Positions 19,294-40,825 of a stretch of DNA of 64,000 nt are shown here, piece after piece. Below the pieces are notes generated by a model. That model did not search any database and was not told the DNA's origin. It was given only the letters and a program-made list of their open reading frames with translations. Source of the DNA: Caulobacteraceae bacterium (GTDB lineage Bacteria; Pseudomonadota; Alphaproteobacteria; Caulobacterales; Caulobacteraceae); the NCBI GenBank assembly GCA_025450315.1, contig JANWHQ010000014.1:1-64000 (forward strand), in the 5' to 3' direction. Numbering within the stretch: the first letter of the stretch is position 1; every line of letters starts with the position of its first letter. Position numbers and translations under genes: made by a program.

Positions 19294-19332
19294 TTAGGGA
19301 GCCGCTAAGCCGGGGCGACGGTCGCTTAGCCT
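19294..19332 (+). promoter_or_regulatory. Phage-regulon promoter P1 (TTAG-N7-CTAA dyad + TAGCCT)
   Basis: TTAG at 19294-19297, seven bases, CTAA at 19305-19308, then 17 bases from the following G to TAGCCT at 19327-19332. The portal ATG begins 7 bases further on, with no ribosome site, so the mRNA is probably leaderless. The same layout recurs at 24135, 27307, 27796 and 40787. The dyad is symmetric and could also serve the divergent gene at 18199. Confidence 0.6.
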
Positions 19333-19339
19333 TCGGCGC

Positions 19340-21592
19340 ATGACCGACGCCGCCCCCGACCTTTCCGCCGCCGAGACTCCCGCCGACTTCGGCGACGACC
19401 CGGGGGCCGTGGCCCGCCGCTGGATCAGCGAACTGGAGCTGGCCGAGAAGGACCAGGAGAGCTGGCGCCGGCGCGGGCGGCGGATCATCGGGCGCTATCG
19501 CGAGGACCGGGCCGAGGCGGCGCCGGAGACGCGCGGGCGGCGGTTCTCGCTGCTGTGGGCCAACATCCAGACCCTGGGTCCGGCCATCTACGCCCGCACG
19601 CCCACGGCGGTGGTAGGACGCCGCTGGAAGGACGACGATCCGGTGGGCCGCGTGGCCTCCGAAGTGCTCGAGCGGGCGCTGAACTTCGCCGTCGACAGCC
19701 TGGATTTCTCGGATGTCCTTCTGGGTCTGAGGGACGACTTCCTGCTGGTCGGCCGCGGCCAGGCCTGGGTGCGCTACGTGCCCCACCTGCGCACGGCGAC
19801 GCCGCCCGCGCCGCCGCCCGACGCCGAGGGCCAGGTCGCCGACGATCCGGAGCCCTTCGAGGTGGTCGACTGGGAGGAGGCGGTGGTCGACCACGTCTGC
19901 TGGGACGACTTCCTGCACAACCCCGCCCGCACCTGGGCCGAGGTGCGCTGGGTGGCGCGCACGGTGTTCATGACCCGCGAGGAGCTGATCCTGCGCTTCG
20001 GCGAGGAGGTGGGCGGCGAGATCCCGCTGGACCACGGGCCCGAGGACCGGGCGGGCTCGCCCGACGAGAACCAGCAGTGGAAGAAGGCGGCCATCTACGA
20101 GATCTGGGACAAGCCCTCGCGCACGGCGCTGTGGATTTCCAGGAGCTGGACCGAGGGGGCCCTGGACCGGCGCGAGGATCCGCTGGGGCTGGCCGACTTC
20201 TTCCCGTGTCCCCGGCCGATCCTGGGGGCCACCGCGCCGGACAGCCTGATCCCCACCCCCGACTACGTCTATTACGAGGGCCAGGCGCGCGACATCAACG
20301 ACCTGACCGGCCGCATCGGCCTGCTCACCGACGCCATCCGCCTGCGCGGCTTCTATGCGGCGGGCGGCGAGGCGGGAAAGTCGCTGGAGGACCTGTTCTC
20401 CAGCGAGAGCGGCACGCTGATCCCGGTGGACAGCTGGGCCGCCTTCGCCGAGCGCGGCGGGGTGAAGGGGCTGATCGAGTGGATCCCGCTCGACATGGTG
20501 ATGAGCGCCCTGCAGGGCTGCATCGAGGCGCGCAAGCAGCTGATCGACGACGTCTACCAGGTGACCGGCATCGCCGACATCATGAGGGGCGACACCGATC
20601 CGGAAGAGACCGCCGCCGCCCAGAGGATCAAGGCCAACTGGGGCGCCTCGCGGGTGCGCGACAAGCAGAAGGAGCTGGCCAGGTTCGCCCGCGACGTGCT
20701 GCGCATCATGGGCCAGGTGATCGCCGGCAGGTTCGCGCCCGAGACCCTGGCGGCCATGACCAACGTGCAGCTGCTCCCGACGCCCGAGGCCAAGGCGGCG
20801 CTGGCGGCGCAGCTGCAGGCGGCGGCCCGGCAGGCGGCGATGGCCGCCGCGCGGGCCCAGGCGACTGGCCAGCCGCCGCCGCCGCCGTTCCGGCCGCCGG
20901 CGGCCGCCCAGGCGCTGCTGGACCAGCCGAGCTGGGCGGAGGTGATGGGCCTGCTCCGCGACAACACGCTGCGGGCCTTCCGCATCGACATCGAGACCGA
21001 CTCCACCATTGAGCCCGACGACCAGGACGAAAAGCAGCGGCGCATCGAGTTCATCCAGGCGGTGGGCGCCTATGTGGCCAAGTCGATGCCGGCCCTGCAG
21101 CTGGCGCCGGCGATGACGCCGGTGATCGCCGAAGGGCTGAAGTTCCTGGTGCGCGGCTTCCGCGTGGGGCGCGAGATGGAGGAGGTGATCGACAAGGCCC
21201 TGGCCGACCTGCAGGCGGGCGGCCTGCAGCCGCCGCAGCCGCCGGCGGGCGGGGGGGCCGGAGCCTCGCGCGACACCCAGACCGACCGGTTGAAGGCCCA
21301 GGCGGCTGTGACCAGCGCCGGCGCCAAGGCCCAGGAGGCGGGCGCCCGCCGCTTCGAGGCCGAGACCGACCGCTTCCGCGCCCAGGCCGAGGCGCGCGCC
21401 GACGTCGCCCGGGTGCAGGCGGAGAACGCGCGCACCGACGCCGACCGCTCGGCCGAGATGGCCATGCACCACGACCAGCTGAAGGCCGACCTGCAGCAGG
21501 CGATCCTGTCGGGCGTCAGCCGCCGGTTCATGCGCGAAACGGACCCGGCCCAGCCGCTGGTCGCGCCACCGGACGCGGGCGGACCCATCTAG
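19340..21592 (+). CDS. Phage portal protein (podovirus-like)
   Basis: 750 residues. Near the N-terminus, SLLWANIQTLGPAIYARTP and later LDFSDVLLGLRDDFLLVGRGQAWVRY are typical of long podoviral portal proteins, the dodecameric head vertex through which DNA passes. The C-terminal ~200 residues are Ala/Gln-rich and helical, consistent with the portal barrel. It begins at an ATG just after promoter P1. No terminase gene lies upstream, where one would be expected; the preceding gene is a divergent muramidase-like protein. Phage origin is clear, host origin excluded. Confidence 0.85.
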   Translation: MTDAAPDLSAAETPADFGDDPGAVARRWISELELAEKDQESWRRRGRRIIGRYREDRAEAAPETRGRRFSLLWANIQTLGPAIYARTPTAVVGRRWKDDDPVGRVASEVLERALNFAVDSLDFSDVLLGLRDDFLLVGRGQAWVRYVPHLRTATPPAPPPDAEGQVADDPEPFEVVDWEEAVVDHVCWDDFLHNPARTWAEVRWVARTVFMTREELILRFGEEVGGEIPLDHGPEDRAGSPDENQQWKKAAIYEIWDKPSRTALWISRSWTEGALDRREDPLGLADFFPCPRPILGATAPDSLIPTPDYVYYEGQARDINDLTGRIGLLTDAIRLRGFYAAGGEAGKSLEDLFSSESGTLIPVDSWAAFAERGGVKGLIEWIPLDMVMSALQGCIEARKQLIDDVYQVTGIADIMRGDTDPEETAAAQRIKANWGASRVRDKQKELARFARDVLRIMGQVIAGRFAPETLAAMTNVQLLPTPEAKAALAAQLQAAARQAAMAAARAQATGQPPPPPFRPPAAAQALLDQPSWAEVMGLLRDNTLRAFRIDIETDSTIEPDDQDEKQRRIEFIQAVGAYVAKSMPALQLAPAMTPVIAEGLKFLVRGFRVGREMEEVIDKALADLQAGGLQPPQPPAGGGAGASRDTQTDRLKAQAAVTSAGAKAQEAGARRFEAETDRFRAQAEARADVARVQAENARTDADRSAEMAMHHDQLKADLQQAILSGVSRRFMRETDPAQPLVAPPDAGGPI

Positions 21593-21667
21593 GCAAGGAG
21601 ACCCGGCGCGCCGCGCCGGGCCTCCAGGCGCCTTTGGCCGGAACCGAAGCCCCGGCTGGAGCCGATG

Positions 21668-21919: not shown

Positions 21920-22012
21920 GGGGTTCCTCCCTGGTTCTGCGAGATGCGCCGCCCCCGGCCCACGGTGCGTGGATGACCAGGGGTAGCACGGCTCCGGCTG
22001 GGATCAACCGAG

Positions 22013-22852: not shown

Positions 22853-24127
22853 ATGAGTCCTCCGCCCAGCTCCGCCGCCGCCGCGCCGGCGGGTTCCGCC
22901 ACGGCCGCCGCGGGCACGACCTTCTGGGTCATCGCGGCGGTGAGCTTCAGCCACATGCTGAACGACATGATGCAGTCGCTGCTGCCGGCGATCTATCCGA
23001 CGCTGAAGCAGAGCTTCCATCTGAGCTTCGCCCAGATCGGCCTCTTGACCCTGGCGTTCCAGCTCACCGCCTCGCTGCTGCAGCCGGTGGTGGGCCTGGT
23101 GGCGGACAGGCGGCCGATGCCGTTCTCGCTGCCGGGCGGGGCGGTGTTCACCCTGACCGGGCTGCTGCTGCTGGGCCTCGCGCAGAACTACGCCATGACG
23201 GTGGTCGCCGCCTGCGTGGTGGGCATGGGATCGTCGGTGTTCCACCCGGAGTGCTCGCGGGTGGCGCGGATGGCGGCCGGGCCCCGGCCGGGCCTGGCCC
23301 AGGCGCTGTTCCAGGTGGGCGGCAACGTCGGCTCGGCGCTGGGACCGCTGCTGGCGGCGATGGTGGTGGCCACCTACGGCCACACCTCGATCGCCTGGTG
23401 CGCGCTGATCGCCCTGGTCTCGATCCTGGTGCTGGGCCGGGTGGGCTGGTGGTACAAGACCGTGGGCCTGGCGCGGATCAGGAGCGCCAGGGCGGCGATC
23501 GCCGACATCGGCCTGTCGCCCGCGGTGGTCCGGCGCTCGATCGTGGTGCTGCTGATACTGATCTTCTCGAAGTTCTTCTATCTGGCAAGTATTTCAAGCT
23601 ACTACACCTTCTACCTGATCCATCACTTCGGGCTGTCGGTCAGGGATGCGCAGCTGCACCTGTTCCTGTTCCTGGCTTCGGTGGCGGTGGGCACCATGTG
23701 CGGCGGGCCGATCGGCGACCGCTATGGCCGCAAGCACCTGATCTGGTTCTCGATCCTGGGCGCCCTGCCGTTCACCCTGCTGCTGCCCTTCGCCAGCCTG
23801 TTCTGGACCAGCGTGCTCAGCGTGGTGATCGGACTGTTCCTGGCCTCGGCCTTCCCGGCGATCGTGGTCTACGGCCAGGAGCTGATGCCGGGACGGGTGG
23901 GCATGGTGGCCGGCCTGTTCTTCGGCTTCTCCTTCGGCATGGGGGGCCTGGGCGCGGCGCTGATCGGGGTGCTGGCCGACATGAAGGGCATCGTCTTCGT
24001 CTATCGCCTGTGCGCCTTCCTGCCGGCGCTGGGCCTGCTGGCCGTGTTCCTGCCCAGGATCGAGAAGCACGGCCGGACCATCGCCACCTCGCCCATGGTC
24101 GACGTCGAGGATCTGGGCCAGGTCTAG
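22853..24127 (+). CDS. fsr: MFS transporter of the fosmidomycin-resistance (Fsr) type
   Basis: 424 residues, twelve hydrophobic segments. SFSHMLNDMMQSLLPAIYP at the start, QPVVGLVADRRPMP, and GMGSSVFHPECSRVARMAAG are hallmarks of Fsr-like pumps, which export fosmidomycin and related compounds at the expense of the proton gradient. Start ATG 22853 follows a weak site. It has the same orientation as the phage genes but ends 8 bases before the dyad of promoter P2 and has no phage-like feature, so it is a host-type passenger. Resistance spectrum unknown. Confidence 0.85.
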   Translation: MSPPPSSAAAAPAGSATAAAGTTFWVIAAVSFSHMLNDMMQSLLPAIYPTLKQSFHLSFAQIGLLTLAFQLTASLLQPVVGLVADRRPMPFSLPGGAVFTLTGLLLLGLAQNYAMTVVAACVVGMGSSVFHPECSRVARMAAGPRPGLAQALFQVGGNVGSALGPLLAAMVVATYGHTSIAWCALIALVSILVLGRVGWWYKTVGLARIRSARAAIADIGLSPAVVRRSIVVLLILIFSKFFYLASISSYYTFYLIHHFGLSVRDAQLHLFLFLASVAVGTMCGGPIGDRYGRKHLIWFSILGALPFTLLLPFASLFWTSVLSVVIGLFLASAFPAIVVYGQELMPGRVGMVAGLFFGFSFGMGGLGAALIGVLADMKGIVFVYRLCAFLPALGLLAVFLPRIEKHGRTIATSPMVDVEDLGQV

Positions 24128-24134
24128 GGGCGGC

Positions 24135-24173
24135 TTAGCGGCGGCCTAAGGGGCCCTCCAGCCCCCCTAGCCT
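24135..24173 (+). promoter_or_regulatory. Phage-regulon promoter P2
   Basis: TTAG at 24135-24138, seven bases, CTAA at 24146-24149, then TAGCCT at 24168-24173, with 17 bases after CTAAG. The fibre-gene ATG follows after 6 bases and has no ribosome site. The half-sites extend to CTTAG/CTAAG, giving a 5-bp inverted repeat. It is the best match to the group consensus. Confidence 0.6.
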
Positions 24174-24179: not shown

Positions 24180-26105
24180 ATGCCCAAGCAACGCCTCGCC
24201 CCGCTCGCCCTCGCGCTCGCCGTCGCCAGCGGCGCCCAGGCCGCCTCGATCACCCCGCCCAACCTGATCCAGGCGACCGGCGCGGCCAACGGCGACCTGA
24301 TGCTGGTCTGGCCCACCACGGCCGGCGGCCCGCTGGAGAGCCTCAGCTGGGCGAACCTCAAGGCCCAGATCCAGGCCGACCTGGGCTCGACCTGGCTGAA
24401 GTCGGCCAACAACCTGTCGGACCTGTCGAACACCACGGCGGCGCGCACCAACCTCGAGCTCGACGCGCCCTGGCAGTCGGTGTCGTTCGCGACCGGCACG
24501 GGCCTCTTCAACCTCTGCGACCCGAGCATCACCTCCGACAACCTCTCGGCCACGATCCCCGCGGGCAATGCGATCACCGACTTCGGGGCCTGCCCCAGCG
24601 GCACGCACAAGCGCATCAAGAACGTCGGGACCACCACCATCGCCCTGGTGGCCGACCGGACGCACATCTTCGGCTACCAGCCGCTGGGCGCCACCGGCGC
24701 GCCGGGCGGCTCGGGCTTCAGCGACATCGTGCCGGTGCAGCCGGGCGACGTGGTCGACGTGGTCTCGCTGGGCTCTGACGCCTGGCAGATCACCAACGAC
24801 CTGCCCATGGGGCTGATGAACTACGGCTATCGGTGTGGGACCGGCTCGCTCAGCGACGCGCCCGCCTTCACCTGGTTCGGCGTCGGCCCCCTCGCGGGCA
24901 ACTGCACCACCAGCAACATCCCGGTGACGCCCTTCGCGGTGGGCTGGGGCATGAACGAAATGAAGATCTACTCCGGCGGGGCGCGCTTCACCCTGCCGGG
25001 CGACACGCCGAACATCGCGTTCTTCATCGCCGACGTGAACTCGGCCGACGGCAGCGCCAAGCCGTGGACGAGCGCCCCCTACCTGGGTTCCCACATCGCC
25101 GGCCAGCCGGTGGTGGACAAGGGCGGCGGCGTCTACGGCTTCGCCAACAACACCGTGGCGGGCGCGCCCGGCTCGGCCTTCCAGGGCTTCAACGCCGACA
25201 TCGCCTATCCGATCATCGGGGTTCCGACCACGACCAGCACGCCCGGCGCCATCGTCTTCAGCGTGACCGCGCCCGGCACGGTGACCCATTTCGACCGCAT
25301 GTGGCTGAACGGCTCGACCGGCGACCTGGTGCTGCAGGGTTCCGGCGCCTGGGAGGCGTGCGGCGCGACCTATCCCTACTCGGCCGGCTCGATCCTGGCG
25401 TCCAAGTCGCCTTGCGCCGACAGCGACTACTACGACACCCCGGGCTATGCGAACCTGACCCTGATCGGCACCGACTACACCTCCGCGATCGACCACGACA
25501 ACGCCGCCATCGCGATCCGCCGGTTCGGGGCCCACACCGAGGGCCTGGACATCGGCATGACCGGCGGGGCCGGCACGGACGTGATGACGGTCCACTCCGG
25601 GACCCGCACCGTGGTCGAACACTTCGACCCCGCCACCAGCCAGGTGACCATGCCGGCGCAGGTGGCCGTATCTGCCTACGTGAACGCGACGATCTCCAAC
25701 GTCACCGGCGATGGGACCGTCTATTTCCCTGTCGTCTTCAATGCGACCAACCTGAACCAGGGCTCGGCTTTCAACACCTCGACGGGAGTGTTCACCGCGC
25801 CCGTGGCCGGGATGTACGAGGCAAGCTACTGCCTCCAACTCACTGGTCTGACGACCTCGGACACGGTCCTGCAGTCGGTGATCGTCACCACACTGAAGAA
25901 CTACCAGTTGTTCGCCGGTGCCGCGAAGCCGGACTCCGGCGGCACGCAAAGCGTCTGCGGCACCGCGACGGCCTACATGGCTGCTACGGATACCCTCAGC
26001 ATCTTCCTCAAAATCTCGGGCAGCACCAAGACCGTCGGCGTGGCCGGTGGAACCGGCGCCGGGAACTCCGGGCTCTCGTACCTGACGGTGCGCCTGGCCG
26101 GCTAA
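24180..26105 (+). CDS. Phage tail fibre-like protein with N-terminal signal peptide
   Basis: 641 residues. After residue ~25 the sequence has a fibre-type repeat (LSWANLKAQIQADLGSTWLKSANNL then SDLSNTTAARTNL), long beta-rich Gly/Thr/Asn stretches, and a C1q/TNF-like C-terminal domain (FNTSTGVFTAPVAGMYEASY, ending in LTVRLAG). This predicts a trimeric receptor-binding fibre. Unusually it begins with a good Sec signal peptide (MPKQRLAPLALALAVASGAQA), which virion fibres assembled in the cytoplasm do not need. It starts 6 bases after promoter P2 and overlaps the convergent GSCFA gene by 4 bases. Confidence 0.7.
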   Translation: MPKQRLAPLALALAVASGAQAASITPPNLIQATGAANGDLMLVWPTTAGGPLESLSWANLKAQIQADLGSTWLKSANNLSDLSNTTAARTNLELDAPWQSVSFATGTGLFNLCDPSITSDNLSATIPAGNAITDFGACPSGTHKRIKNVGTTTIALVADRTHIFGYQPLGATGAPGGSGFSDIVPVQPGDVVDVVSLGSDAWQITNDLPMGLMNYGYRCGTGSLSDAPAFTWFGVGPLAGNCTTSNIPVTPFAVGWGMNEMKIYSGGARFTLPGDTPNIAFFIADVNSADGSAKPWTSAPYLGSHIAGQPVVDKGGGVYGFANNTVAGAPGSAFQGFNADIAYPIIGVPTTTSTPGAIVFSVTAPGTVTHFDRMWLNGSTGDLVLQGSGAWEACGATYPYSAGSILASKSPCADSDYYDTPGYANLTLIGTDYTSAIDHDNAAIAIRRFGAHTEGLDIGMTGGAGTDVMTVHSGTRTVVEHFDPATSQVTMPAQVAVSAYVNATISNVTGDGTVYFPVVFNATNLNQGSAFNTSTGVFTAPVAGMYEASYCLQLTGLTTSDTVLQSVIVTTLKNYQLFAGAAKPDSGGTQSVCGTATAYMAATDTLSIFLKISGSTKTVGVAGGTGAGNSGLSYLTVRLAG

Positions 26106-27040
26106 GCAGACTGCTCGTAGGCCGACAGCATGTGGTCGGCGACCTCGCGCACCACCTCTTCCCTGACGTGCGTGTGGTCGTCGATATAGCTCGCCAGGCC
26201 GCCGCTTCGGACGATCTCGTAGGCGGGGAAATAGTCGACGCCCGGGAGAGCGGCCAGCTGCCCGGCGGCGACGCGGAGAACGGCCTTGGAGTACTCGTTG
26301 GCGTTGACACAGTCCTCGCCCGAGAAGGTGACTTGAAGGGGAACCGGCGAAACGGTGAGGATCACGTGCACGCCGGACGCCCCCAGCGCTTCAAGGGCGG
26401 GCGCCAGCACCGCCGTGGTTTCTTCGACCCCGAGGCGGCGGAAGCTGAAGCGGCCGGGGTGCTTGCGCGCCCACTCCTTCGTGGGCATCCGGTTCAGGAA
26501 CAGGCGGAGTTCCTCATCGTACCAGCACTCGACGAACCCCAGGGTGACGATCGCGCAATCCGAGGCCCCGAGCCGCCGATAGACGGCGTCGATCTCGCGC
26601 CTGCGCCCGAGCGCCCGTTCGCGGGTCACGCTGGCGCCGGCCTTCAGCTGCGGGTCGATCACCCCATCGCCGACCGGGATAAGGGAGTCGTCCGGCAGCG
26701 ATGCGCCCTCGAGCGCCAGCAGGATGCGCTGCGCGGTCGAGCCAGGATTGTACTCGTTCAACAGCCCATTTGGCGCGTGGCGGAATTCCTCTGGCGGCAC
26801 GGCGAAGTCGAGGGTCGGCACCCGGCACCCCAGCGGGGCGAGCGCCTGCTCGATATTGCGGGCGAAGCAACTGCCGATGGTGAAGACCTGCGCCCCTCGG
26901 AAATCGATACGCCGCTTGGGGGTGAACTCAGGGAACAGAAGGCCGGCGCGCGCGCGGCGGTCGCCCGAGACTGGATATTCGCGGATCTCGCGAACGCTCG
27001 CGGGCTGCCTGACGGCCTGTTCGAAAGAGAGCTTCTGCAT
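26102..27040 (-). CDS. GSCFA family protein
   Basis: 312 residues, cytoplasmic. The family signature is FTIGSCFARNIEQAL, giving the Gly-Ser-Cys-Phe-Ala name. It is followed by NPGSTAQRILLALEG, VTLGFVECWYD, and ILTVSPVPLQVTFSGEDC near the C-terminus. The family resembles SGNH hydrolases and is often found in glycan-related loci, but its reaction is unproven. It is on the minus strand, convergent with the fibre gene, and may modify surface glycans that serve as a receptor; that is speculation from position. Confidence 0.8.
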   Translation of the reverse strand: MQKLSFEQAVRQPASVREIREYPVSGDRRARAGLLFPEFTPKRRIDFRGAQVFTIGSCFARNIEQALAPLGCRVPTLDFAVPPEEFRHAPNGLLNEYNPGSTAQRILLALEGASLPDDSLIPVGDGVIDPQLKAGASVTRERALGRRREIDAVYRRLGASDCAIVTLGFVECWYDEELRLFLNRMPTKEWARKHPGRFSFRRLGVEETTAVLAPALEALGASGVHVILTVSPVPLQVTFSGEDCVNANEYSKAVLRVAAGQLAALPGVDYFPAYEIVRSGGLASYIDDHTHVREEVVREVADHMLSAYEQSA

Positions 27041-27189: not shown

Positions 27190-27321
27190 ATGGCTGAAGC
27201 CGCTCCCACTTTCGGCCAAATCCTGGAGTGGGACAGGGCGGGCCTTGTCACGCTCGCGGGCCGCGACGACGGCCGCCGCCCGGGTCCGCCGACGAGTTCG
27301 CCGGGTTTAGCCCGGCCCTAA
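27190..27321 (+). CDS. Possible 43-residue ORF
   Basis: ATG at 27190 has GAGG six bases upstream. It encodes 43 residues beginning MAEAAPTFGQILEWDRAGLV and becoming Arg/Pro-rich. Its TAA stop overlaps the CTAA half of promoter P3. The first half looks protein-like; the second half looks like non-coding G+C-rich sequence. May be a short phage gene or a chance frame. The rest of 27041-27189 shows no gene. Confidence 0.25.
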   Translation: MAEAAPTFGQILEWDRAGLVTLAGRDDGRRPGPPTSSPGLARP

Positions 27322-27647: not shown

Positions 27648-27799
27648 GCGCGTGTTTCACCGGCTCCGGCGCCGCGGACGCGCCGCTGCATTCGCCCGTG
27701 GGCCCCGATCCGTTTTCCTCGGGTCGCCGCCGCCTCCGCCAAGGAGCCGTCTCCGGCCGGCCGTCCTGCGCCGCCTCCAATCTCGAAGTGACCGTTTAG
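27644..27799 (+). CDS. Possible 51-residue ORF
   Basis: ATG at 27644 overlaps the stop of the preceding gene in an ATGA, the usual coupling arrangement in phage operons. The 51-residue product (MSACFTGSGAADAPLHSPVG and so on) is Ser/Arg/Pro-rich with no recognisable fold. It stops within the TTAG half of promoter P4. Only the coupling supports it. Confidence 0.25.
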   Translation: MSACFTGSGAADAPLHSPVGPDPFSSGRRRLRQGAVSGRPSCAASNLEVTV

Positions 27800-27834
27800 C
27801 CCCGTCCTAAGCGGGCGCCGGGAGGACCGATGAT
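27796..27834 (+). promoter_or_regulatory. Phage-regulon promoter P4
   Basis: TTAG at 27796-27799, seven bases, CTAA at 27807-27810. The downstream element is poor (GATGAT where TAGSCT is expected). The distance from CTAAG to the ATG at 27842 (30 bases) matches P1-P3 (28-30), which argues for that start rather than the ATG at 27830. Confidence 0.45.
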
Positions 27835-27841: not shown

Positions 27842-28957
27842 ATGACCCAAGACACCGAGGAATTCATCGACTCCGCCGCCGCGCCCCTGGCCGGCGAAGC
27901 GGACGGCCTGTCCCTGCGCGAGGCGCTGGCGAATGCGCTGGCGGACGCCGGGGAGGGCGCGGCGGCCGCTTCCGTCCCCCCGGCGGCCGCCGCGCCCGCT
28001 CGAGACCCGGACGGGCGCTTCGCCCGGTCCTCGGATCGCCCGGGCCCCCAATCTCCGAATGAGCCGGACGGACCGCCCACCCCCGCCAAGGCGGGGGGCG
28101 AGCCGGCGGCCGGACCCGGCGCCGCGGACGCGGCCCGGACCACCGCGCCGCCGCCCTCGTGGAGCGCCGCAGCCCAGGCCGAGTTCCAGTCCCTGCCCGA
28201 ACATATCCGAAAGGAGGTCCTGAAGCGGGAAGCGGACATGGAGCGCGGCCGGGCCCAGTGGCAATCGGGCGCCGAACGGCTCAACCGCCTGGACGCCGTG
28301 CTTGGCCCCCGCGCCGACTACATCCGCATGCGCGGCATGGACGAGGCCGGCGCCATCCAGGCGCTGTTCGCGGCCCAGGACCTGCTCGAGCGCGACCCGA
28401 TCGAGGGCCTGAGGCACATCGCGCGAACCTACGGCGTCGACCCCCGCGCCCTGGCCATGGCCGGCGCGCCGCAGCAGCCGCAGGGGGCGACGTCCCCCCA
28501 GGCCCAGCCGCCGGCGCCGTTCGCCAGCCTGGCGCGCGAGGTCGAGACCCTGAAAGGAGCGCTCGCGCAGCAGCGGCAGCGCGCCGAAGCCGCCCACAAG
28601 GCCGGGGTGTTGAGCCAGGTCGAGGCGTTCGCCGCCGATCCCGCCAATCTCTACTTCGAGAACGTGCGCGAACGGATGGCGGCCCTGCTACGGGCCGAGA
28701 CGGCGAAGGACGTCGCCGAGGCCTACCAGCAGGCGATCTGGAGCGATCCCGACGTGCGCTCGCAGCTCCTGCGCCAGCAGGCGGCCGAGCGGCCGGGCGG
28801 GCCTTCGGACGCCGCCCGCGCGAAAGCGGCGCAGGCCCGTCACGCCTCAGGGTCGATCACCGGCTCGCCCTCGCCCGGCTCGCGTCCGGGCCGGGGCGGG
28901 CCAGCCCCCACGCTCCGCGACGAGCTGCTCCACGCCTGGAACGAGCACGCGGTCTGA
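27842..28957 (+). CDS. Phage scaffold-like protein
   Basis: 371 residues, placed directly before the capsid gene. Acidic N-terminus (MTQDTEEFIDS), a Pro/Ala-rich disordered middle, then helices with EFQSLPEHIRKEVLKREADMERGRAQW and FFENVRE-like and AEAYQQAIWSDPDVR segments. It ends in a Gly/Pro/Arg-rich tail (LRDELLHAWNEH). This acidic, helical, low-complexity profile before a major capsid gene is typical of scaffolding proteins that guide procapsid assembly. ATG 27830 is an alternative start with GGAGG close upstream; the promoter spacing favours 27842. Confidence 0.6.
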   Translation: MTQDTEEFIDSAAAPLAGEADGLSLREALANALADAGEGAAAASVPPAAAAPARDPDGRFARSSDRPGPQSPNEPDGPPTPAKAGGEPAAGPGAADAARTTAPPPSWSAAAQAEFQSLPEHIRKEVLKREADMERGRAQWQSGAERLNRLDAVLGPRADYIRMRGMDEAGAIQALFAAQDLLERDPIEGLRHIARTYGVDPRALAMAGAPQQPQGATSPQAQPPAPFASLAREVETLKGALAQQRQRAEAAHKAGVLSQVEAFAADPANLYFENVRERMAALLRAETAKDVAEAYQQAIWSDPDVRSQLLRQQAAERPGGPSDAARAKAAQARHASGSITGSPSPGSRPGRGGPAPTLRDELLHAWNEHAV

Positions 28958-28983: not shown

Positions 28984-29955
28984 ATGGCTTCCCCGAACCT
29001 CAACGAGATCGTGACCACGACTCTCCGGAACCGCTCCGGAAAGCTCGCGGACAACATCACCAACAACAACGCCCTCCTGGCGCGGATGAAGAAGAAGGGC
29101 TCGATCAAGCCCGTCTCCGGCGGCCGCACCATCGTGCAGGAGCTGGAGTACGCCCAGAACGGCACCTACCAGCGCTATGCCGGCTACCAGGTGCTGAACA
29201 TCCAGCCCTCGGACGTGTTCACCGCGGCCGAGTTCGACTGGAAGCAGGCGGCCGTGGCGGTCACCTGGAACGGCCTGGAGATCGACGTCCAGAACACCGG
29301 CGCCGAGCAGATCATCGACCTCTTGGAAAGCCGGATCCAGAACGCCGAGAAGACCATGGCCAACAACCTGTCCTACGACCTGTATTCCAACGGGACGGCG
29401 GACGGGGGCCTGCAGATCGGTGGCCTGCAGCTGCTGGTCGCCGACGCGCCGACCTCGGGCGTGGTGGGCGGCATCGACCGCTCGCAGTGGCCGTTCTGGC
29501 GCAACCAGGTGTTCTCGGGCGTGACCAACGGCGGCGCCGCGGTCTCGCCGTCCAACATCCAGGCCTACATGAACCAGCTCTGGCTGGCGACGAAGCGCCA
29601 GAACGACGTCACCGACCTGATCATCGCCGACAACGCCTACTTCAACGACTACTGGCTGAGCCTGCAGGCGATCCAGCGGATCACCAGCGAAAGCAGCGGC
29701 GAGGCCGGCTACCAGACGCTGAAGTACATGGGCGCGGACGTGGTCCCCGACGGCGGCGTGGGCGCGGCCTGCCCGGCCAACCACATGTATTTCCTGAACA
29801 CCGACTACATCAAATATCGGCCGTCCTCGAAGCGGAACATGGTTCCGCTGGAGACGGTCTCCTCGATCAACCAGGACGCCTCCGTGCGGCTGATCGTGTG
29901 GGCCGGGAACATGACCCTGTCCAACGCCCAGCTGCAGGGCGTGCTGATCGCCTAA
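28984..29955 (+). CDS. Phage major capsid protein (HK97-fold candidate)
   Basis: 323 residues. It begins MASPNLNEIVTTTLRNRSGK, and has VSGGRTIVQELEYAQNGTYQRYAGY, a long helix FDWKQAAVAVTWNGLEI and a C-terminal RLIVWAGNMTLSNAQLQGVLIA. These are typical of the capsid proteins that follow scaffold genes in podovirus-like prophages. It forms the icosahedral shell. AAAGGAAT precedes the ATG. It sits 26 bases after the scaffold gene, in the same operon driven by P4. Confidence 0.8.
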   Translation: MASPNLNEIVTTTLRNRSGKLADNITNNNALLARMKKKGSIKPVSGGRTIVQELEYAQNGTYQRYAGYQVLNIQPSDVFTAAEFDWKQAAVAVTWNGLEIDVQNTGAEQIIDLLESRIQNAEKTMANNLSYDLYSNGTADGGLQIGGLQLLVADAPTSGVVGGIDRSQWPFWRNQVFSGVTNGGAAVSPSNIQAYMNQLWLATKRQNDVTDLIIADNAYFNDYWLSLQAIQRITSESSGEAGYQTLKYMGADVVPDGGVGAACPANHMYFLNTDYIKYRPSSKRNMVPLETVSSINQDASVRLIVWAGNMTLSNAQLQGVLIA

Positions 29956-29968: not shown

Positions 29969-31555
29969 ATGCGAGACCTTCGTCATCTATCCGGCCGCGC
30001 CGCGCTCCTCGCCGGCGCCGCCGATCCGGCCCTGTGCCAGCTGGTCTGGCAGGGGGACTTCGGCACGGGCCAGCCCACCGGCTCGGGCGTGTGGGACGAC
30101 GCCGGCATCAATCCGTGCCTGCTCGTCCTGACCGGGACCGCCAACTCGATCCCGCAGCCGCAGTTCAAGCTCGGCCATCGGGCCCGTGGCGACTTCGGCA
30201 CCGAGTTCGTCTACTGCCGCCTGGTCCTGGCCTCGACCACCGACCTCTTGCCTGGGGACGTCTACCAGTTCGACGAGAACTTCCTCGCCGCCGCCGCGAC
30301 CACCTCCGGCGCGGTGCTGAGCGGGGAAGTGGGCGTCGGCATGGTGTTCGCCCCGGCGACGGTGGCCGGGACCTATTACCTCTGGCTGGCGGTGCGCGGG
30401 CACATCGGCGTCCGCGACAATGGCTCCTCGGTCGCCCATGGCGTCGCCGAGACCAGCACGGGGGCCGGGGCGGTGAAGTTCAAGATCACCCACACGTCGA
30501 CGACGCTGACCTTGAACAACCTGGTGGCCAACGCCGCGTCCAGCAACATCACCTTCACTGGTGACACGCTGAACGGCTCGCCCACGATCAAGAACGTGGC
30601 CTCGCAGATCAGCCTCGACGGGGCTGTGGGCGGGATCACGGACCTGCTCCTGGGTGCGACGATCACCGGCACGAACCTGCCATCGAACGCCTGTATCGCC
30701 GCGATCCGGCGTGTGGCGAACGCCTGGCAGATCGATATCGGGACCTCCACCACCGGGGCCCAGAAGACGTTGCAGAACGCCTCGGGCACGGCGACGGGAA
30801 CGACCTTCACCCTCACCACCCTGGTGCAGGCGCAGGCCCTGAACCCGCTGGGCGCGCCGGCGGTGACCCGATCCACGGGCGGGAGGGTTCCGGCCCTCCC
30901 GCTACCCTTTGAGAGGCTCCATGTCCGAAACCGATTTCCGCGACCCCTCGGCCCCGAAGTCGCCGGCGATCCCGCAGTTCTTCACCGAGGCGGTGAAGCT
31001 GGAGTGGAAGAGCCGCCAGGAGGGCCGCCCGATCTTCGAGGACCGGGAGTTCGTCCGCATCATCATCCCCGGCGACCGCCGCTCCGTGGCCGTCGAGCCG
31101 GTGGGCGAAGCGCACAAGGCGCGCTGGCCGCGCGAATACGAGGCCTTCCAGGTCGGCCGCGAGGCGCCCGTGGAGGGCACGCCGCTGTCGGAATGGCCGG
31201 TGTCGCTGATGAGCCCGGCCCGGGTGCAGGAGCTGGCCTATTTCAACCTGCGCACGGTCGAGCAGCTGGCGGCGGTCAACGACGCCCAGCTGCAGAACCT
31301 GGGCATGGGCTCGCGGGAGCTGCGCGAGCGGGCCCGCACCTGGCTGGAGGTCGCGGCCAAGGGCGCCGGGCCCATCGAGCGGCTGATCTCGCGCAACGAG
31401 GAGCTGACGCTGGAGACCGAGCGGCTGACGCGCGAGCTGAAGGCCGCCAACGCCGAGCTGTCGGCGCTGAAGAGCAAGGAGATCCGCCATGCCGGCGCTG
31501 CAGCGTAGCGTCTCGATCCGGGGCGCGAGGTTCTACCAGGAGGGCGATCAGGTGA
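29969..31555 (+). CDS. Phage head decoration/fibre-type protein; no stop where expected
   Basis: The protein-like part is residues 1 to ~298 (to about base 30865): MRDLRHLSGRAALLAGAADP, beta-rich domains with LVWQGDFGTGQPTGSGVWDD and YLWLAVRGHIGVRDNGSS, and a Thr/Asn-rich C-terminal region ending near LVQAQALNPLGAP. This suits a capsid-surface or spike protein. Beyond this point the frame stays open but becomes Arg/Gly/Pro-rich, passes through a perfect hairpin at 30879-30902, and overlaps the entire next gene. The true stop has probably been lost by a small frameshift or sequence error. GGGAG precedes the ATG. Confidence 0.55.
   Translation: MRDLRHLSGRAALLAGAADPALCQLVWQGDFGTGQPTGSGVWDDAGINPCLLVLTGTANSIPQPQFKLGHRARGDFGTEFVYCRLVLASTTDLLPGDVYQFDENFLAAAATTSGAVLSGEVGVGMVFAPATVAGTYYLWLAVRGHIGVRDNGSSVAHGVAETSTGAGAVKFKITHTSTTLTLNNLVANAASSNITFTGDTLNGSPTIKNVASQISLDGAVGGITDLLLGATITGTNLPSNACIAAIRRVANAWQIDIGTSTTGAQKTLQNASGTATGTTFTLTTLVQAQALNPLGAPAVTRSTGGRVPALPLPFERLHVRNRFPRPLGPEVAGDPAVLHRGGEAGVEEPPGGPPDLRGPGVRPHHHPRRPPLRGRRAGGRSAQGALAARIRGLPGRPRGARGGHAAVGMAGVADEPGPGAGAGLFQPAHGRAAGGGQRRPAAEPGHGLAGAARAGPHLAGGRGQGRRAHRAADLAQRGADAGDRAADARAEGRQRRAVGAEEQGDPPCRRCSVASRSGARGSTRRAIR
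30879..30902 (+). terminator. Intrinsic terminator-like hairpin
   Basis: A perfect 9-bp stem GCGGGAGGG / CCCTCCCGC with loop TTCCGG, followed by TACCCTTT. It lies after the protein-like part of the preceding gene and 18 bases before the next start codon, where a gene boundary would be expected. It may weaken or terminate transcription from the capsid unit. Confidence 0.6.
30921..31508 (+). CDS. Phage protein, helical C-terminus, unknown role
   Basis: 195 residues from the ATG at 30921 (GAGAGG upstream; a TTG at 30909 is an alternative). N-terminal part contains KSPAIPQFFTEAVKLEWKSRQEGRPIFED and FVRIIIPGDRR. Around the middle, LNLRTVEQLAAVNDAQLQNLGMG is a helix-hairpin-like segment. The C-terminus is a coiled coil (NEELTLETERLTRELKAANAELSALKSKE). 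The family occurs beside capsid genes of podovirus-like prophages without an assigned function. Confidence 0.65.
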   Translation: MSETDFRDPSAPKSPAIPQFFTEAVKLEWKSRQEGRPIFEDREFVRIIIPGDRRSVAVEPVGEAHKARWPREYEAFQVGREAPVEGTPLSEWPVSLMSPARVQELAYFNLRTVEQLAAVNDAQLQNLGMGSRELRERARTWLEVAAKGAGPIERLISRNEELTLETERLTRELKAANAELSALKSKEIRHAGAAA

Positions 31556-31698
31556 TGTTCGTCCGCCATCTGGACGCCTCGACCCGCGAGGGTCCCCGCG
31601 CCGCGACCGACCAGGACCGCTGGACGCATCCGGAAGCCTGGGGCGAGTTCGACGCCGACCGACCGCCTGCCGCGCCCTCGCCGAAGAGGAAGGCATGA
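31489..31698 (+). CDS. Small phage protein
   Basis: 69 residues, overlapping the end of the previous gene by 20 bases and the start of the next by 4, so it is translationally coupled on both sides. RFYQEGDQVMFVRHLDASTREG and WTHPEAW are recognisable beta/loop segments, and the C-terminus is basic (PSPKRKA). Compact phage genes of this size between capsid and adaptor genes are common. Role unknown. Confidence 0.6.
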   Translation: MPALQRSVSIRGARFYQEGDQVMFVRHLDASTREGPRAATDQDRWTHPEAWGEFDADRPPAAPSPKRKA

Positions 31699-32390
31699 GC
31701 CTGCTGTCGATCGTCCAGGGCGTGTCGGGGCGGCTGTCGCTGCCGCAGCCGTCGGCGGTGGTGGGATCGAGCGACAAGCAGGTGATCCAGCTGCTGGCCC
31801 TGGCCAACGAGGAGGGGACCGCGCTGGCGCGCCGGCACGGCTGGCAGGCGCTGGCGGAGGAGCAGACCTTCGTCACCGTGGCCTCGCCGGCCCAGGGCGC
31901 GGCGCTGCCGGCCGACTTCGACCGCTTCGTCCCGGGCAGCGTCTTCAACCGCTCGACCCGGCGGCCGATGACCGGGCCGATCACGTCCCGGCAATGGCAG
32001 TGGATCCAGGCCCAGCCGGCCTATTCCACCGCCTGCCTGGCGTTCCGCGAGCGCACCGGCCAGTTCCTGATCGCCCCCACGCCGCCGGCGGGCGAGACGA
32101 TCGCCTACGAATACCTGTCGAGGAACTGGGCCCGGAGCTCGGGCGGCGCGGCGCAGTCCGCCTTCCTGGCCGACGCCGACAAGGCGCTGCTGGACGAGGA
32201 GCTGATCGCGCTGGGCCTGCGCTGGCGGTTCCTGCGGGCCAAGGGGCTCGATTACGCCGAGGAGATGGCCAGCTACGAACGGGAGCTGGAGCAGGCCATG
32301 GCCCGCGACGGCGGCTCGACCGCGGTGAGCCTCACGCCCCGGCCGGCGGACCCCGACCGCGTCAACATCCCCGACGGGAGCTTCGGCTGA
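31695..32390 (+). CDS. Phage head-to-tail adaptor protein
   Basis: 231 residues. Helical and charged, with VVGSSDKQVIQLLALANEEGTALARRHGWQAL near the N-terminus and a beta segment with YEYLSRNWAR, then AFLADADKALLDEELIALGLRWRFLRAKGLDYAEE. This composition and its order after the capsid genes fit the gp11/gp4-type adaptor that joins the portal to the tail. It ends in the TGATG overlap that starts the tail-hub gene. Confidence 0.65.
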   Translation: MSLLSIVQGVSGRLSLPQPSAVVGSSDKQVIQLLALANEEGTALARRHGWQALAEEQTFVTVASPAQGAALPADFDRFVPGSVFNRSTRRPMTGPITSRQWQWIQAQPAYSTACLAFRERTGQFLIAPTPPAGETIAYEYLSRNWARSSGGAAQSAFLADADKALLDEELIALGLRWRFLRAKGLDYAEEMASYERELEQAMARDGGSTAVSLTPRPADPDRVNIPDGSFG

Positions 32391-34210
32391 TGCGCGCGGC
32401 GCTGCGAGCCAATCCCCAGCGCCGGCAGGTGTCGGTCGGCCAGTCGATCCCGGCGCCGATCGGGGGCTGGGACGCCTACAACCCCCTGGCCGCCATGCCG
32501 ATCGAGAACGCGGTGATCCTGGACAACTGGGTGCCGCGCGCCGGCTATGTGGAGATGCGGCGGGGCTATGTGCAGCACGCCAGCGGCTTCACCTCGCCGG
32601 CCGAGAGCCTGATGGCCTTCCGCGGCGGCCCGGCGGGCGACAGCCTGTTCGCGGCGGCCGGGGGAGAGATCCACGACGTGACCGACGGCGGCCTGATCGG
32701 GGCGCCGATCGCCTCGGGTTTCAGCTGCGACCGCTGGAACAGCGTCAACTATTCCAACGCGGCCGGCGCCTGGCTGGTCGCCGTCAACGGCCAGGACGCG
32801 CCCCAGGGCTACAACTTGGGCGCCTGGGCGCCGCTGCCGGCGCTGTCGGGAAGCTCGGGCCCGATCGTCCTGGCGCCCGAGAGCCTGTTCAACGTGTTCG
32901 CGCACAAGGGGCGGCTGCACTACCTCGAACAGGGGACGCTGCGCGTCTGGAACCCGGCCGCCGGCGCGGTGGGCGGAGCGTGCACGCTGCTCGACCTGTC
33001 GTCGATCTTCTCCAAGGGCGGGCGGCTGGTGGCGGGCGGGGGCTGGAGCTACCAGTTCGGCGTCACCGCCGACGACTACGCCGTCTATGTCAGCGACCAG
33101 GGCCAGGTGGCGATCTACCAGGGCAGCGATCCCACCAACGCCTCGGACTGGAGCCTGGTGGGCGTCTACGACTTCGGCCCGCCGCTAGGGCCCAAGGGCC
33201 TGCTGAAATTCGGCGGCGACCTGGCGGTGCTGACCTCCGACGGGGTGATCCCGCTGAGCCAGGGGCTGAAGCTCGACCGCTCCCGGCAGAACGAGGTGGC
33301 GCTGACCGCCAAGATCGTCAACGCCTTCTCGGCGGCGGTGAAGAACTACGCGGCCAACCACGGCTGGCAGGGGATCCTCTATCCCGGCCAGACCCAGAGC
33401 GCGGACGTCTCGGCCTCGGGCGGATCGCTGGCGATCTTCAACGTGCCGGTGTCGCCGCCGCCCTGGAACGCCCAGACCACCTATCCGGCCTCGACCGGCG
33501 CCCAGCCGATGCTGGTGCTGGGATCGGACGAGACCGTCTATGCCTCGGCCGTGGGCTCGAACCTGGGCCACAATCCGGTGGGGGACGGCGGAGTCCACTG
33601 GACGGCGGCGGGCGCCTCCGGCGGGACCAACATCCAGTTCGTGCAGAACGTGATGACCGGGGCCTGGTGCCGGTTCGTGAACCTGGACGCCTTCTGCTGG
33701 GAGCTGGCCAACGGCGCCATCTACTTCGGCTCGACGCTGGGGGTGTTCCAGTGGGACGTGGGCTCGGACGACTCGGGCACGCCGATCACCGGCGACGTGA
33801 AGAGCGCCTTCACCAACTTCGGCGACGGCAGCCGCCAGAAGCGCTTCACCATGATCCGGCCGCTGCTCTACACCACCTCGGCGGTGCGGCCGACGCTGGA
33901 GATCGACGTCGACTACCAGGAGAGCGAGCCGACGGCGGCGCCCACCATCTCGCCCCAGGGCGCGGCCGCCGCGATCCGCTACGACTGGACCAGCGCCTCG
34001 GGCATCGGCTACGTCGGCGCCGCGCGGATGCAGGTGCAGCTGCAGGGCGACACCGCCGCGGCGCTGCTGGGCGTCGGCGACACCCCGCCCCACGACCTGG
34101 GCATCGACAGCTCGGACGACACCCTGCTGACCCAGGGCAGCGCGCCCTTCGACGTGCCCTGCCAGCTGCTGGGCTTCGACGTGGTCTACGAGGTGGGCGG
34201 CCTGATCTGA
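32390..34210 (+). CDS. Podovirus tail tube/hub protein (P22 gp10-like)
   Basis: 606 residues from an ATG that shares its A with the previous stop (TGATG). GGWDAYNPLAAMPIENAVILDNWVPRAGYVEMRRG at the start, repeated beta-propeller-like strands (LFAAAGGEIHDVT, LRVWNPAAG, YAVYVSDQGQVAIYQGS), and RFTMIRPLLYTTSAVRPTLEIDVDY resemble podoviral tail-hub or DNA-stabilisation proteins. It is coupled at its end to the GNAT gene by another TGATG. The 738-residue frame from 31994 is a read-through, not the gene. Confidence 0.7.
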   Translation: MRAALRANPQRRQVSVGQSIPAPIGGWDAYNPLAAMPIENAVILDNWVPRAGYVEMRRGYVQHASGFTSPAESLMAFRGGPAGDSLFAAAGGEIHDVTDGGLIGAPIASGFSCDRWNSVNYSNAAGAWLVAVNGQDAPQGYNLGAWAPLPALSGSSGPIVLAPESLFNVFAHKGRLHYLEQGTLRVWNPAAGAVGGACTLLDLSSIFSKGGRLVAGGGWSYQFGVTADDYAVYVSDQGQVAIYQGSDPTNASDWSLVGVYDFGPPLGPKGLLKFGGDLAVLTSDGVIPLSQGLKLDRSRQNEVALTAKIVNAFSAAVKNYAANHGWQGILYPGQTQSADVSASGGSLAIFNVPVSPPPWNAQTTYPASTGAQPMLVLGSDETVYASAVGSNLGHNPVGDGGVHWTAAGASGGTNIQFVQNVMTGAWCRFVNLDAFCWELANGAIYFGSTLGVFQWDVGSDDSGTPITGDVKSAFTNFGDGSRQKRFTMIRPLLYTTSAVRPTLEIDVDYQESEPTAAPTISPQGAAAAIRYDWTSASGIGYVGAARMQVQLQGDTAAALLGVGDTPPHDLGIDSSDDTLLTQGSAPFDVPCQLLGFDVVYEVGGLI

Positions 34211-34716
34211 TGCGGCTGGTGCTGGGCCGGGACGCGGCGGTGGCCGACTGGGTGGGCCGGCGCATCGCGCACGTGGGGACAGGCGAGGCGTTCGGGCCCT
34301 GCGCGGCGATCGGGGTGGAGGCCGAGGACGGCCGGCCCCTGGGCGGGGTGGTGTTCTCCAACTGGCAGCCCGCCTGCCGTTCGATCGAGGCCAGCTTCGC
34401 CGCCGACGGCCCGCGCTGGCTGACCCGGCGGCTGATCGGCCAGATCCTCAGCTACCCGTTCGGCCAGCTGGACTGCCAGAGGATCACCGCCCTGACCCCG
34501 CGGCGGGCCACGGCCGCGCGGCGGTTCCTGGAGGCGTTCGGATTCCGGCGCGAGGGGCTGGTGCGCAAGGGCTTCGGCGACGACGACGCGGTGGTGTCGG
34601 GCCTGCTGAGGCGGGAGTGGGAGACGAGCCGGTGGGTCCGGCGAGGCGATCAGAGCCGCTCGCCGTCCTCGCCCCGGACGACCACGCCCACCCCTCGCTC
34701 CGGATCGTCGGGATAG
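34210..34716 (+). CDS. Phage-encoded GNAT-like acetyltransferase
   Basis: 168 residues, coupled to the hub gene (TGATG). The middle has RWLTRRLIGQILSYPFGQLDCQRITALTPRRATAARRFLEAFGFRREG, the GNAT core with its C-terminal loop, where the Q/R-x-x-G acetyl-CoA turn is weak. Small GNAT proteins of this kind are widespread in tail-region clusters of podophages. Substrate unknown. The last ~20 residues overlap the convergent cupin gene by 67 bases and may not be native. Confidence 0.6.
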   Translation: MRLVLGRDAAVADWVGRRIAHVGTGEAFGPCAAIGVEAEDGRPLGGVVFSNWQPACRSIEASFAADGPRWLTRRLIGQILSYPFGQLDCQRITALTPRRATAARRFLEAFGFRREGLVRKGFGDDDAVVSGLLRREWETSRWVRRGDQSRSPSSPRTTTPTPRSGSSG

Positions 34717-36166: not shown

Positions 36167-36198
36167 GCCGGCGCGACCATCGGGAGAGGGTGGGCCTC

Positions 36199-36430
36199 AG
36201 CACGCCAGGGCCCTGCCGGGGGCCCTTGACCGGAACCTCGGCGAGGCGGGCGATGCCAGTCCTGGGCATGGCGGCGGCGTCCGGGCGGTGGAACCAGCAT
36301 AGTTTAGGCCGAGTCCGCAGGCATCGCGCGAGCTCCGCCGCGTCTGGTTCGGCGCCGCGGCCTAAGGGCGATAGAACCCAAAGCCGTCGAGGACCTCCTT
36401 GAAAACGGCCTTCGAGAGCGCGTTGTCGCG
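36199..36430. repeat. Direct repeat, copy 2, with truncated cupin fragment
   Basis: Second copy of the repeat at 35041. It holds a 5' fragment of a second cupin gene (minus strand, 36199-36269; begins MPRTGIARLAEVPVKGP) that loses similarity after ~24 codons. It then contains the intact 3' end of the gene at 36362. A segmental duplication with the acyltransferase gene in between is the simplest reading. Confidence 0.75.
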
Positions 36431-38908: not shown

Positions 38909-38910
38909 TG

Positions 38911-40743
38911 TCAGGGCTTGGCCGCCGGCGCCGCGGTGGTCGCAGCCCCTGCCGCCGGCGCGTCCGGACCGATGCCCAGCCGCCTGGCGCGGGCGACCAC
39001 CACCGGGGAGATGTCGTCGGCGGCCTTGAGGTCGGCCTCGCCGTCGGCGGCGCGGCCGGTCTTCAGCTCGGCGACGCCCCGGCCGTAATGGGCCCAGGCG
39101 ATCTGGGGCTGGAGCCTCAGCGCCGCGTCGTAGTCGCCGATGGCCTGCTGGTACTGGCCCAGCCGCAGACGCACCAGGCCGCGGCTGTCGAGGAACTCGG
39201 CGGTCGAGGGGCGCAGCTTCAGGGCGCGGTCGCAGTCGGCCAGGGCGATCTGGAGCTCGTGGTTGGCCAGGGCCCTGGCCCAGCAGCGGCCGTTGAGGGC
39301 GAAGGCCAGGCGCTCGTCCTTGGGATTGGCGGCGATCCACTGGTCGTAGTTGTCGACGGCCGGCTGCATCAGGCCGACGGCCTCGTAGGCCTGGGCGATC
39401 TCGAGCCGCAGCTGCGGGTCGATCCTGGCCGCCGCCTCGAAGTCGGCCCGGGCGCCGTCGGGGTCGCGGTCGGCCAGCTTCAGCCGCCCCCGGCCGAGCA
39501 GGGCCAGGGTGAAATCCGGCTTGAGCTTCAGCGCCTGGTCCAGGTCGGAGACGGCCAGCAGCGGCTGGCGGTTGCCCAGCCGCGCCATGGCGCGGTCGTA
39601 GGCGAGCTGGGGATCGGCGGGGGCCAGCGCCATGGCGTGGGTGAAGTCGTCGATCGCCTGGGGATATTCGCGCCGGGCGCTGGCGGCGGCGCCGCGGCGG
39701 GCATAGCCGCTGGCGTCGGTGGGCTGATCCCCTGCGGGGACGGCGGCTCCCGGGGCGGGCGGCGCGGCTGCGGTAGCCTCGGTGACGGGCGGCGGGGCCG
39801 GGGCGCTGTCCAGGCGGAACACCGGGCCGCCGTTGTAGGTGAAGTAGAGCTTGTCCTGGCTGCGGGCGATGTAGATCCGGTGCGAGAGCATGAAGTCCGC
39901 GCCGATCAGCATGTCGACATCGCCCAGGTCGATGGCGCCGATCCTGAGCCGGGTGTGCTCGATCTCCTCGTCGCCGATCCTGAAGCTGTCGACCGGCGCG
40001 ATCCAGGTCTCGATCGAGCGCCGGCCGAAGCCGTTGGTGAGCCCCGCCGGGGTCACGCCGGGCCCGTCGTGACGGATGCCGGCGCGGCCGGCCGCGCGCA
40101 GGGTGAGCACCGAGGTGGAGGCCCCGCTGTCGAACAGCACCTTCATGGTGACCCCGTTCACCTTGGCCGTGCCGATCACCGGGCCGGTGCGCCCGCGCGC
40201 CTCGTCCAGCAGGACCACCGAATAGGGGGCGCCGGGCGCGGCCCAATAGGCCAGGGGCTGGCCCTCGCAGCCGTGGGGCTGGAACATGCGGACCGCGCCG
40301 TTGGCGAGGTCGAGTTCGACATCGGCGACCATCAGGAAGTTGCGCCCGAGGATGCCGTCGATGGTCGGCCCGAACTCGGTGCCGCCGACCAGGAACTGGG
40401 TGTGGTGGAAGGGCGCGCCCAGCAGGGTGAAGTCCGAGACGGTGGCGAGCCCGACGTCGGCTTCGCCGTTGACGCCGCTGACCGTGATGCCGGACGGCAG
40501 GGCGCCGACCCTCAGGTGGTAGCGGTCCACGCGTGAGCGGCTGATCGAGCTGAAGAAGGCCCCGAGGTCGACCAGCAGGCGGGCGTCGACGCCTTCGATC
40601 CTGGCGTCGATCACCGGCGACAGGCCCTGCATGGTGACCGGCATGGTGACGACCAGGTCGAGCTTGCAGGCGGCCGCCGCGGGAAGGGCGGGGACCAGCA
40701 TCGCGGCCAGCATCGACAGTATCAGCACAAGTCTGGAGCGCAT
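38911..40743 (-). CDS. Retropepsin-like aspartic protease with TPR repeats
   Basis: 610 residues with a Sec signal peptide (LVLILSMLAAMLVPALPAAAA). Two retropepsin domains follow: one at ~40-160 with DLG (Asp59-Leu-Gly) in place of D[TS]G, and a second at ~195-320 with FDSGAST (Asp204). A Pro/Ala linker leads to ~7 tetratricopeptide repeats (~360-585). The second domain could be catalytic; retropepsins need two aspartates, so the DLG domain may be structural or partly active. Exported, likely periplasmic. It is divergent from the phage gene at 40860 and shares the dyad of P5. Confidence 0.75.
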   Translation of the reverse strand: MRSRLVLILSMLAAMLVPALPAAAACKLDLVVTMPVTMQGLSPVIDARIEGVDARLLVDLGAFFSSISRSRVDRYHLRVGALPSGITVSGVNGEADVGLATVSDFTLLGAPFHHTQFLVGGTEFGPTIDGILGRNFLMVADVELDLANGAVRMFQPHGCEGQPLAYWAAPGAPYSVVLLDEARGRTGPVIGTAKVNGVTMKVLFDSGASTSVLTLRAAGRAGIRHDGPGVTPAGLTNGFGRRSIETWIAPVDSFRIGDEEIEHTRLRIGAIDLGDVDMLIGADFMLSHRIYIARSQDKLYFTYNGGPVFRLDSAPAPPPVTEATAAAPPAPGAAVPAGDQPTDASGYARRGAAASARREYPQAIDDFTHAMALAPADPQLAYDRAMARLGNRQPLLAVSDLDQALKLKPDFTLALLGRGRLKLADRDPDGARADFEAAARIDPQLRLEIAQAYEAVGLMQPAVDNYDQWIAANPKDERLAFALNGRCWARALANHELQIALADCDRALKLRPSTAEFLDSRGLVRLRLGQYQQAIGDYDAALRLQPQIAWAHYGRGVAELKTGRAADGEADLKAADDISPVVVARARRLGIGPDAPAAGAATTAAPAAKP

Positions 40744-40786
40744 CCCGGCAGACTAATCCTGGGGCCAAGCTTGGGGGAAGGCCGTT

Positions 40787-40825
40787 TTAGCGCCGGCCTA
40801 ACGACCTCCACGCGACGGCTAGGCT
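40787..40825 (+). promoter_or_regulatory. Phage-regulon promoter P5
   Basis: TTAG at 40787-40790, seven bases, CTAA at 40798-40801, then TAGGCT at 40820-40825, 17 bases after CTAAC. Unlike P1-P4 the next gene starts 34 bases later, at a TTG with an AGGAG ribosome site, so this mRNA has a leader. It drives the virion protein and lysis cassette. Confidence 0.6.

Follow-up and report, generated by a model that had tools for sequence, protein, structure and literature searches.

Gene transfer agents (GTAs) are defined as particles of caudoviricete derivation, encoded by an endogenized and vertically inherited genome, which package mostly random host DNA, cannot package their own full genome and deliver DNA to other cells (PMC9662315). 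The structural and accessory genes of the R. capsulatus system (RcGTA) occupy five loci, including a large head-tail cluster, and answer to one activator with a DnaA-like HTH, GafA (PMC6363796, PMC9662315). The gafA gene is controlled by CtrA (PMC6363796), as are several alphaproteobacterial phages (PMC9437464); CtrA binds TTAA-N7-TTAA near the -35 region (PMC4287350, PMC9437464), and its full-box promoters, with a palindrome of 7-bp spacer over the -35 region, include at least one leaderless gene (PMC4287350). In the Caulobacter crescentus system (CcGTA; RogA/GafY/GafZ/IHF), an operon that encodes a DnaA-type HTH protein is under a LexA/CI-like S24 repressor, and several scattered loci are activated together (PMC9632790, PMC11150451); there is one main cluster, 14 kb long, whose single main promoter is served by a GafY element at about -120 plus IHF.

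Here we describe an arrangement from the same family, Caulobacteraceae, which shares with both systems scattered loci and a DnaA-type HTH protein (here a candidate activator), and with CcGTA an S24 repressor, the co-activation being in our case predicted. In contrast to CcGTA, it consists of podovirus genes in many short units with a dyad over the -35 region, and its repressor adjoins the candidate activator operon, which itself includes a terminase. The window, as the term is used below, is the whole 64-kb stretch analysed (positions 1 to 64,000 of contig JANWHQ010000014.1) from a metagenome-assembled genome of 164 contigs with 5.7% contamination. A search of the PMC literature, subscription journals excluded, returned no paper describing this arrangement.

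Podovirus genes dispersed among host genes

Five forward-strand units of phage derivation, P1 to P5, are found in the window. P1 is a portal gene (19340..21592; phrog_12082, E 1.6e-202) with phage relatives. P2 encodes a fibre-like protein with a C1q domain (24180..26105), the N-terminus of which is homologous to the product of the gene after the portal in the phage contig L077 (CAIVVT010000276.1), and P3 a 98-aa phage protein (27351..27647; phrog_21669) whose start matches the small protein of L077. P4 is the longest, with a scaffold-like protein (27842..28957; tblastn matches to phages L020, L033 and L077), a podovirus-type major capsid protein (MCP; 28984..29955; NF033394, E 1.1e-96) and a remainder (29969..34636) of head/neck and tail (phrog_6013) genes, a long tail/amidase-family gene (32390-34210; phrog_5107) and a small gene at the end. 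P5 is a virion structural protein (40860..42026; phrog_6121, E 2.7e-24).

Host-type genes stand between these units: portal and fibre are separated by an MFS transporter (22853..24127, forward strand), fibre and small protein by a GSCFA protein (26102..27040, reverse strand), and P4 and P5 by an aspartyl protease/TPR protein (38911..40743, reverse strand). A further gene of 346 aa (18199..19239, reverse strand) is divergent from P1; its product has no Pfam or PHROG match, and its predicted structure (pLDDT 45) is unusable. With seven matches, four of them strong, the GSCFA family is enlarged in this genome, and it is rare in 79 related genomes; its synteny is not conserved in relatives and is uninformative on the order of insertion. 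Between P4 and P5 there is also a direct duplication of 160 bp, 93% identical (35034-35193 and 36192-36351), which flanks a 298-aa gene.

The closest phage is L077, with a capsid 87% identical to the window MCP. Its genes run in the order DnaA-like, 230-aa gene, winged helix, TerS, TerL, two genes, portal, fibre, small, scaffold and capsid, and the contig carries an integrase-like gene, as read from the sequence. Between portal and capsid the window keeps this order, though with interruptions: the portal and fibre genes of L077 overlap at the place where the window has the MFS gene and a dyad. Temperate podoviruses of the L077 type and phages with Mx8-like portals have their gene order in common with the genes present here, yet they carry these genes uninterrupted by the host genes and also possess an integrase-like gene and an early region. 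None of 80 viral loci around capsid relatives contains the MFS, GSCFA or protease genes. Among 390 genomes of the family, five, the window's own included, encode the MCP. Genome G181 was considered as a second dispersed case and rejected: its portal and capsid lie at facing contig ends with the portal adjoining TerS/TerL, so that it is probably one split prophage. A second phage type in G181 (C1:2065000-2072600; L038:10165-17596) has TerS-TerL with a phrog_156 portal 4 kb on, and response-regulator and lipoprotein genes in between.

A shared promoter-like element at the head of each unit

The inverted repeat TTAG-N7-CTAA occurs exactly at 19294..19308, 24135..24149, 27307..27321, 27796..27810 and 40787..40801, spanning 21.5 kb, and at no other position in the window. 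Five such dyads compare with 0.01 expected from dinucleotide shuffles, and 0 of 100 shuffles reach five; two copies with one mismatch lie at 7386 and 36932. Each lies 44-73 bp before the start of a unit derived from a podovirus, so that both the number and the placement claimed in the first-pass annotation were reproduced. In the window no dyad precedes the capsid, neck or tail genes or the other genes inside phage units (the 29969..34636 segment included), nor the same-strand host genes, the MFS gene among them. At the two outermost sites the palindrome also lies upstream of a divergent gene, the 346-aa gene at P1 (69 bp) and the host-like protease/TPR gene at P5 (58 bp), and these dyads can serve the divergent genes too.

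Downstream of each dyad there is a -10-like hexamer: TAGCCT at P1 (19327..19332) and P2 (24168..24173), CAGGCT at P3 (27339..27344), GATGAT at P4 (27829..27834) and TAGGCT at P5 (40820..40825). The TAGSCT element that had been described holds for 19294, 24135 and 40787, where it lies 18 bases after CTAA with zero mismatches to a 39-bp composite; its spacing had been counted as 17 bases past CTAAG. The base after CTAA is G at four sites and C at 40787. The CAGGCT of P3, 17 bp after CTAA, is one base closer, as had been noted. At P4, where the element had been called not recognisable, GATGAT occupies the same place in register, so that P4 is less aberrant than first claimed.

At P1 to P4 the hexamer follows the dyad by 17-18 bp and the ATG stands a further 6-7 bp on (7, 6, 6 and 7 nt), giving distances from dyad start to start codon of 46, 45, 44 and 46 bp; at P5, which is leadered and has AGGAG before a TTG start, the distance is 73 bp. 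A composite model with the start codon (dyad with at most one mismatch, N17/18, NANNNT, N5-8, RTG) matches the window exactly four times, at P1 to P4, against 0.017 per window in shuffles. If the A of the ATG is taken as the transcription start, the hexamer falls at -10 and the dyad at about -45 to -31, and the P3 start codon agrees with the L077 homologue (MTRTIYV versus MARTRYV). Spacing and, at P3, the start codon together make a leaderless-promoter layout at P1 to P4, with the dyad over the -35 region as earlier suggested, a well-supported reading of the sequence.

None of P1 to P5 has the features of a sigma-70 promoter (-35 TTGAC with an A/T-rich -10 at 16-18 bp): TTGAC is absent and the -10 is weak, only NCTAGSCT-like. 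These promoters should therefore be inactive unaided, and their layout is consistent with dependence on an activator.

Further sites in the genome and candidate regulators

The whole genome contains eight exact dyads and nine matches of the reversed control pattern; since the control is equally frequent, the clustering is the signal and the total is background. One exact dyad, on C28, precedes an ordinary MFS gene, probably by chance. Another, on C159, lies where the P1 region is partly duplicated: the dyad with the 5' end of the 346-aa gene (common sequence CTGGAGCAAAGGA) exists in three copies (C29:23308-23370, C159:51906-51969 and window 19230-19308), of which those on C29 and C159 are truncated. 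A third (C117:47970) precedes a TerS-like gene (NGRFGPGNPGRRRGSRN) with a weak PHROG match. When the composite was scanned with a tolerance of three mismatches, a single additional site had the proper arrangement, C39:4419 with two mismatches (TTAGCGTTCCCCCAA-N18-TAACCT-N7-ATG), which ends 7 nt before the ATG of an operon. The products of this operon are an HTH protein with DnaA domain IV (PF08299), a protein with a winged helix, a short protein and a large terminase (TerL); a CI/LexA-like repressor gene with HTH and S24 domains is divergent from it. The TerL had already been located independently by phrog_2, before the composite scan; it is 57% identical to a terminase adjoining the portal in prophage G097, and related terminases adjoin the portal in viral relatives of the window capsid. 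A terminase match on C98 was identified as PhoH and discarded. The genome-wide scan, which had been proposed as a check on a shared regulon, speaks for such a regulon: the motif is not spread over unrelated genes, and the scan led beyond the window's contig to a TerL operon and to a TerS-like gene. The earlier interpretation as a whole is partly supported.

Both loci have host flanks (UppS, histidine kinase, deacetylase and Hpt), and endogenization extends over several loci, those on C14, C39 and C117 each lying among host genes. The dyad arrangement is known from one species, a 99.98% identical IMG/VR contig adding no divergence. The 27 other IMG/VR matches to the composite promoter all came from two unrelated repeated sequences and were set aside.

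Two proteins of the C39 operon are candidate activators. The winged-helix protein (100 aa; predicted model with pLDDT 91.6) is slightly preferred; its nearest solved folds are MarR-like dimers, with no fold match of E below 0.001, and an OmpR/CtrA-type assignment was dropped since the fold search favours MarR-like, at weak E-values. The DnaA-domain-IV protein (113 aa) is comparable to GafY. The adjacent repressor retains, by eye, the GDSM serine, a lysine and an AG pair, as a cleavable S24 protein should, whereas key residues are reported to be missing from RogA (PMC9632790); from this difference one might guess at induction of the regulon by DNA damage. A different palindrome, AGCACG-AAA-CGTGCT (by eye), lies between the CI-like gene and the operon (L041 4330-4420) and is likely a repressor operator.

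A related terminase system under a different promoter

Relatives of the C39 TerL (54-68%) occur in most genomes of genus g62, which belongs to the same bacterial family; there the terminase genes sit among host genes, several with a TerS-like gene. These loci (e.g. L177-L189, L190-L219) share another promoter, TTGAC-N10-20-TTGCA-WW-ATG, found in 1-13 copies per genome in six g62 genomes and absent from the window's genome and from G181; its reversed form was never found. In G402 of this genus it also heads, by eye, a portal-like gene at a separate locus. Since many of the remaining g62 sites precede ORFs that are short or unidentified, this regulon is only sketched. Some of these copies head short GCTGCC-rich ORFs, possibly RNAs. 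As g62 has similar scattering under a different promoter, the wiring may have been rebuilt more than once, a tentative reading to which we give somewhat less than even weight.

A predicted regulon and probable domestication of the phage genes

From the motif, its geometry and clustering, the dispersal and the gene identities, we infer promoter activity, an activator, a switch and a particle as follows. A temperate podovirus would have been domesticated, with the fragments of its late operon coming to lie among host genes, and every fragment would bear a copy of one promoter in which the dyad replaces the -35 element and the NCTAGSCT-like hexamer serves as -10. Transcription of P1 to P4 would begin from, or beside, the A of the ATG. 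All units would be activated jointly by a dimeric protein bound to the dyad, putatively the winged-helix or the DnaA-domain-IV protein of the C39 operon, with that operon itself under a degenerate dyad promoter and the CI/LexA-like S24 repressor as the likely master switch. Since nearly every piece begins with the same promoter-like sequence, the scattered pieces are probably switched on together, perhaps for the purpose of making particles that carry DNA. A GTA-like particle is proposed as the probable output because structural and packaging genes are kept, whereas no integrase or replication genes were seen alongside the fragments. In keeping with domestication, GC3 of the phage genes (0.89-0.97) equals that of host genes (0.86-0.95) and is above that of the L077 MCP (0.86). 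Taken as a whole, we regard this account of a scattered podovirus still held as one regulon by a copied promoter and a dimeric activator as likely.

The strongest competing explanation is that the dyad is an operator, at which a repressor (the C39 CI-like protein or the MarR-like dimer) covers the -35 region and silences the scattered genes. Proteins of MarR-like fold are mostly repressors and bind inverted repeats. A CI/S24 repressor is indeed present in C39, and the dyad shared in g62 overlaps the -10 of a consensus promoter, a placement typical of operators. However, the repressor gene's own intergenic region carries the other palindrome, and P1 to P5, having no TTGAC-like -35 and weak -10 hexamers, should not be active unaided; we judge the operator reading unlikely.

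An alternative in which the dyad is a variant CtrA box, with host CtrA driving the phage genes, draws on the likeness of TTAA-N7-TTAA, a palindrome near -35 with the same 11-bp spacing (PMC4287350, PMC9437464), and on the role of CtrA at gafA and in several alphaproteobacterial phages. The comparison made in the first-pass annotation stands as to position over -35 and differing half-sites (TTAG/CTAA versus TTAA/TTAA), but the CtrA box itself is found nowhere in the window, even with one mismatch. Moreover, the inner position is G/C in 10 of 10 half-sites and the exact dyad is mostly confined to phage units, making control by CtrA very improbable. Ordinary prophage decay, with the dyads as functionless relics of ancestral late promoters, would account for the host genes between units and for the truncated copies of the P1 region on C159 and C29. 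Against it, all structural ORFs checked are intact, and in the MCP compared with that of L077 codons with silent changes outnumber those with replacements (84 versus 41). The fetched phage relatives are without dyad promoters, TTAG-N7-CTAA being absent from the fetched 12 kb of L077, and the MFS gene and dyad stand where L077 has overlapping genes. We consider simple decay equally improbable. A chance origin, in which a dispersed repeat happens to have left the dyads near phage genes, as partial copies of the region beside P1 might suggest, is largely refuted since the interior N7 and flanks of P1 to P5 differ and do not align beyond the half-sites and the -10, and it hardly merits consideration.

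On the preferred reading of a domesticated regulon, the system resembles a GTA, though, judging from its genes, not one of the R. capsulatus family: the capsid (NF033394) and portal (phrog_12082) belong to podovirus families, which places them outside the Rhodogtaviriformidae. By relatedness, the encoded proteins include a portal, a capsid, a scaffold, a tail protein and TerL, from which particles may be formed. An active prophage is contradicted by late genes split by the MFS, GSCFA and protease genes and by TerL and TerS on other contigs. With rather less confidence, at something short of even odds, it may be proposed that this is a separately domesticated, podovirus-derived GTA of the Caulobacteraceae, with its late operon in at least seven units under one mostly leaderless, activator-dependent promoter, in a regulon rewired more than once.

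Implications

In the well-studied GTAs of R. capsulatus and C. crescentus most structural genes lie in one cluster, whereas here even neighbouring structural genes appear to be separately promoted. With the dyad promoter one could search for dispersed GTAs, which prophage finders would miss because their genes are not contiguous, and five 39-bp promoters, two small HTH proteins and one repressor are defined targets for studying the co-regulation of domesticated phages. If true, the proposal would show how an operon of phage origin can become an ordinary, dispersed regulon of its host.
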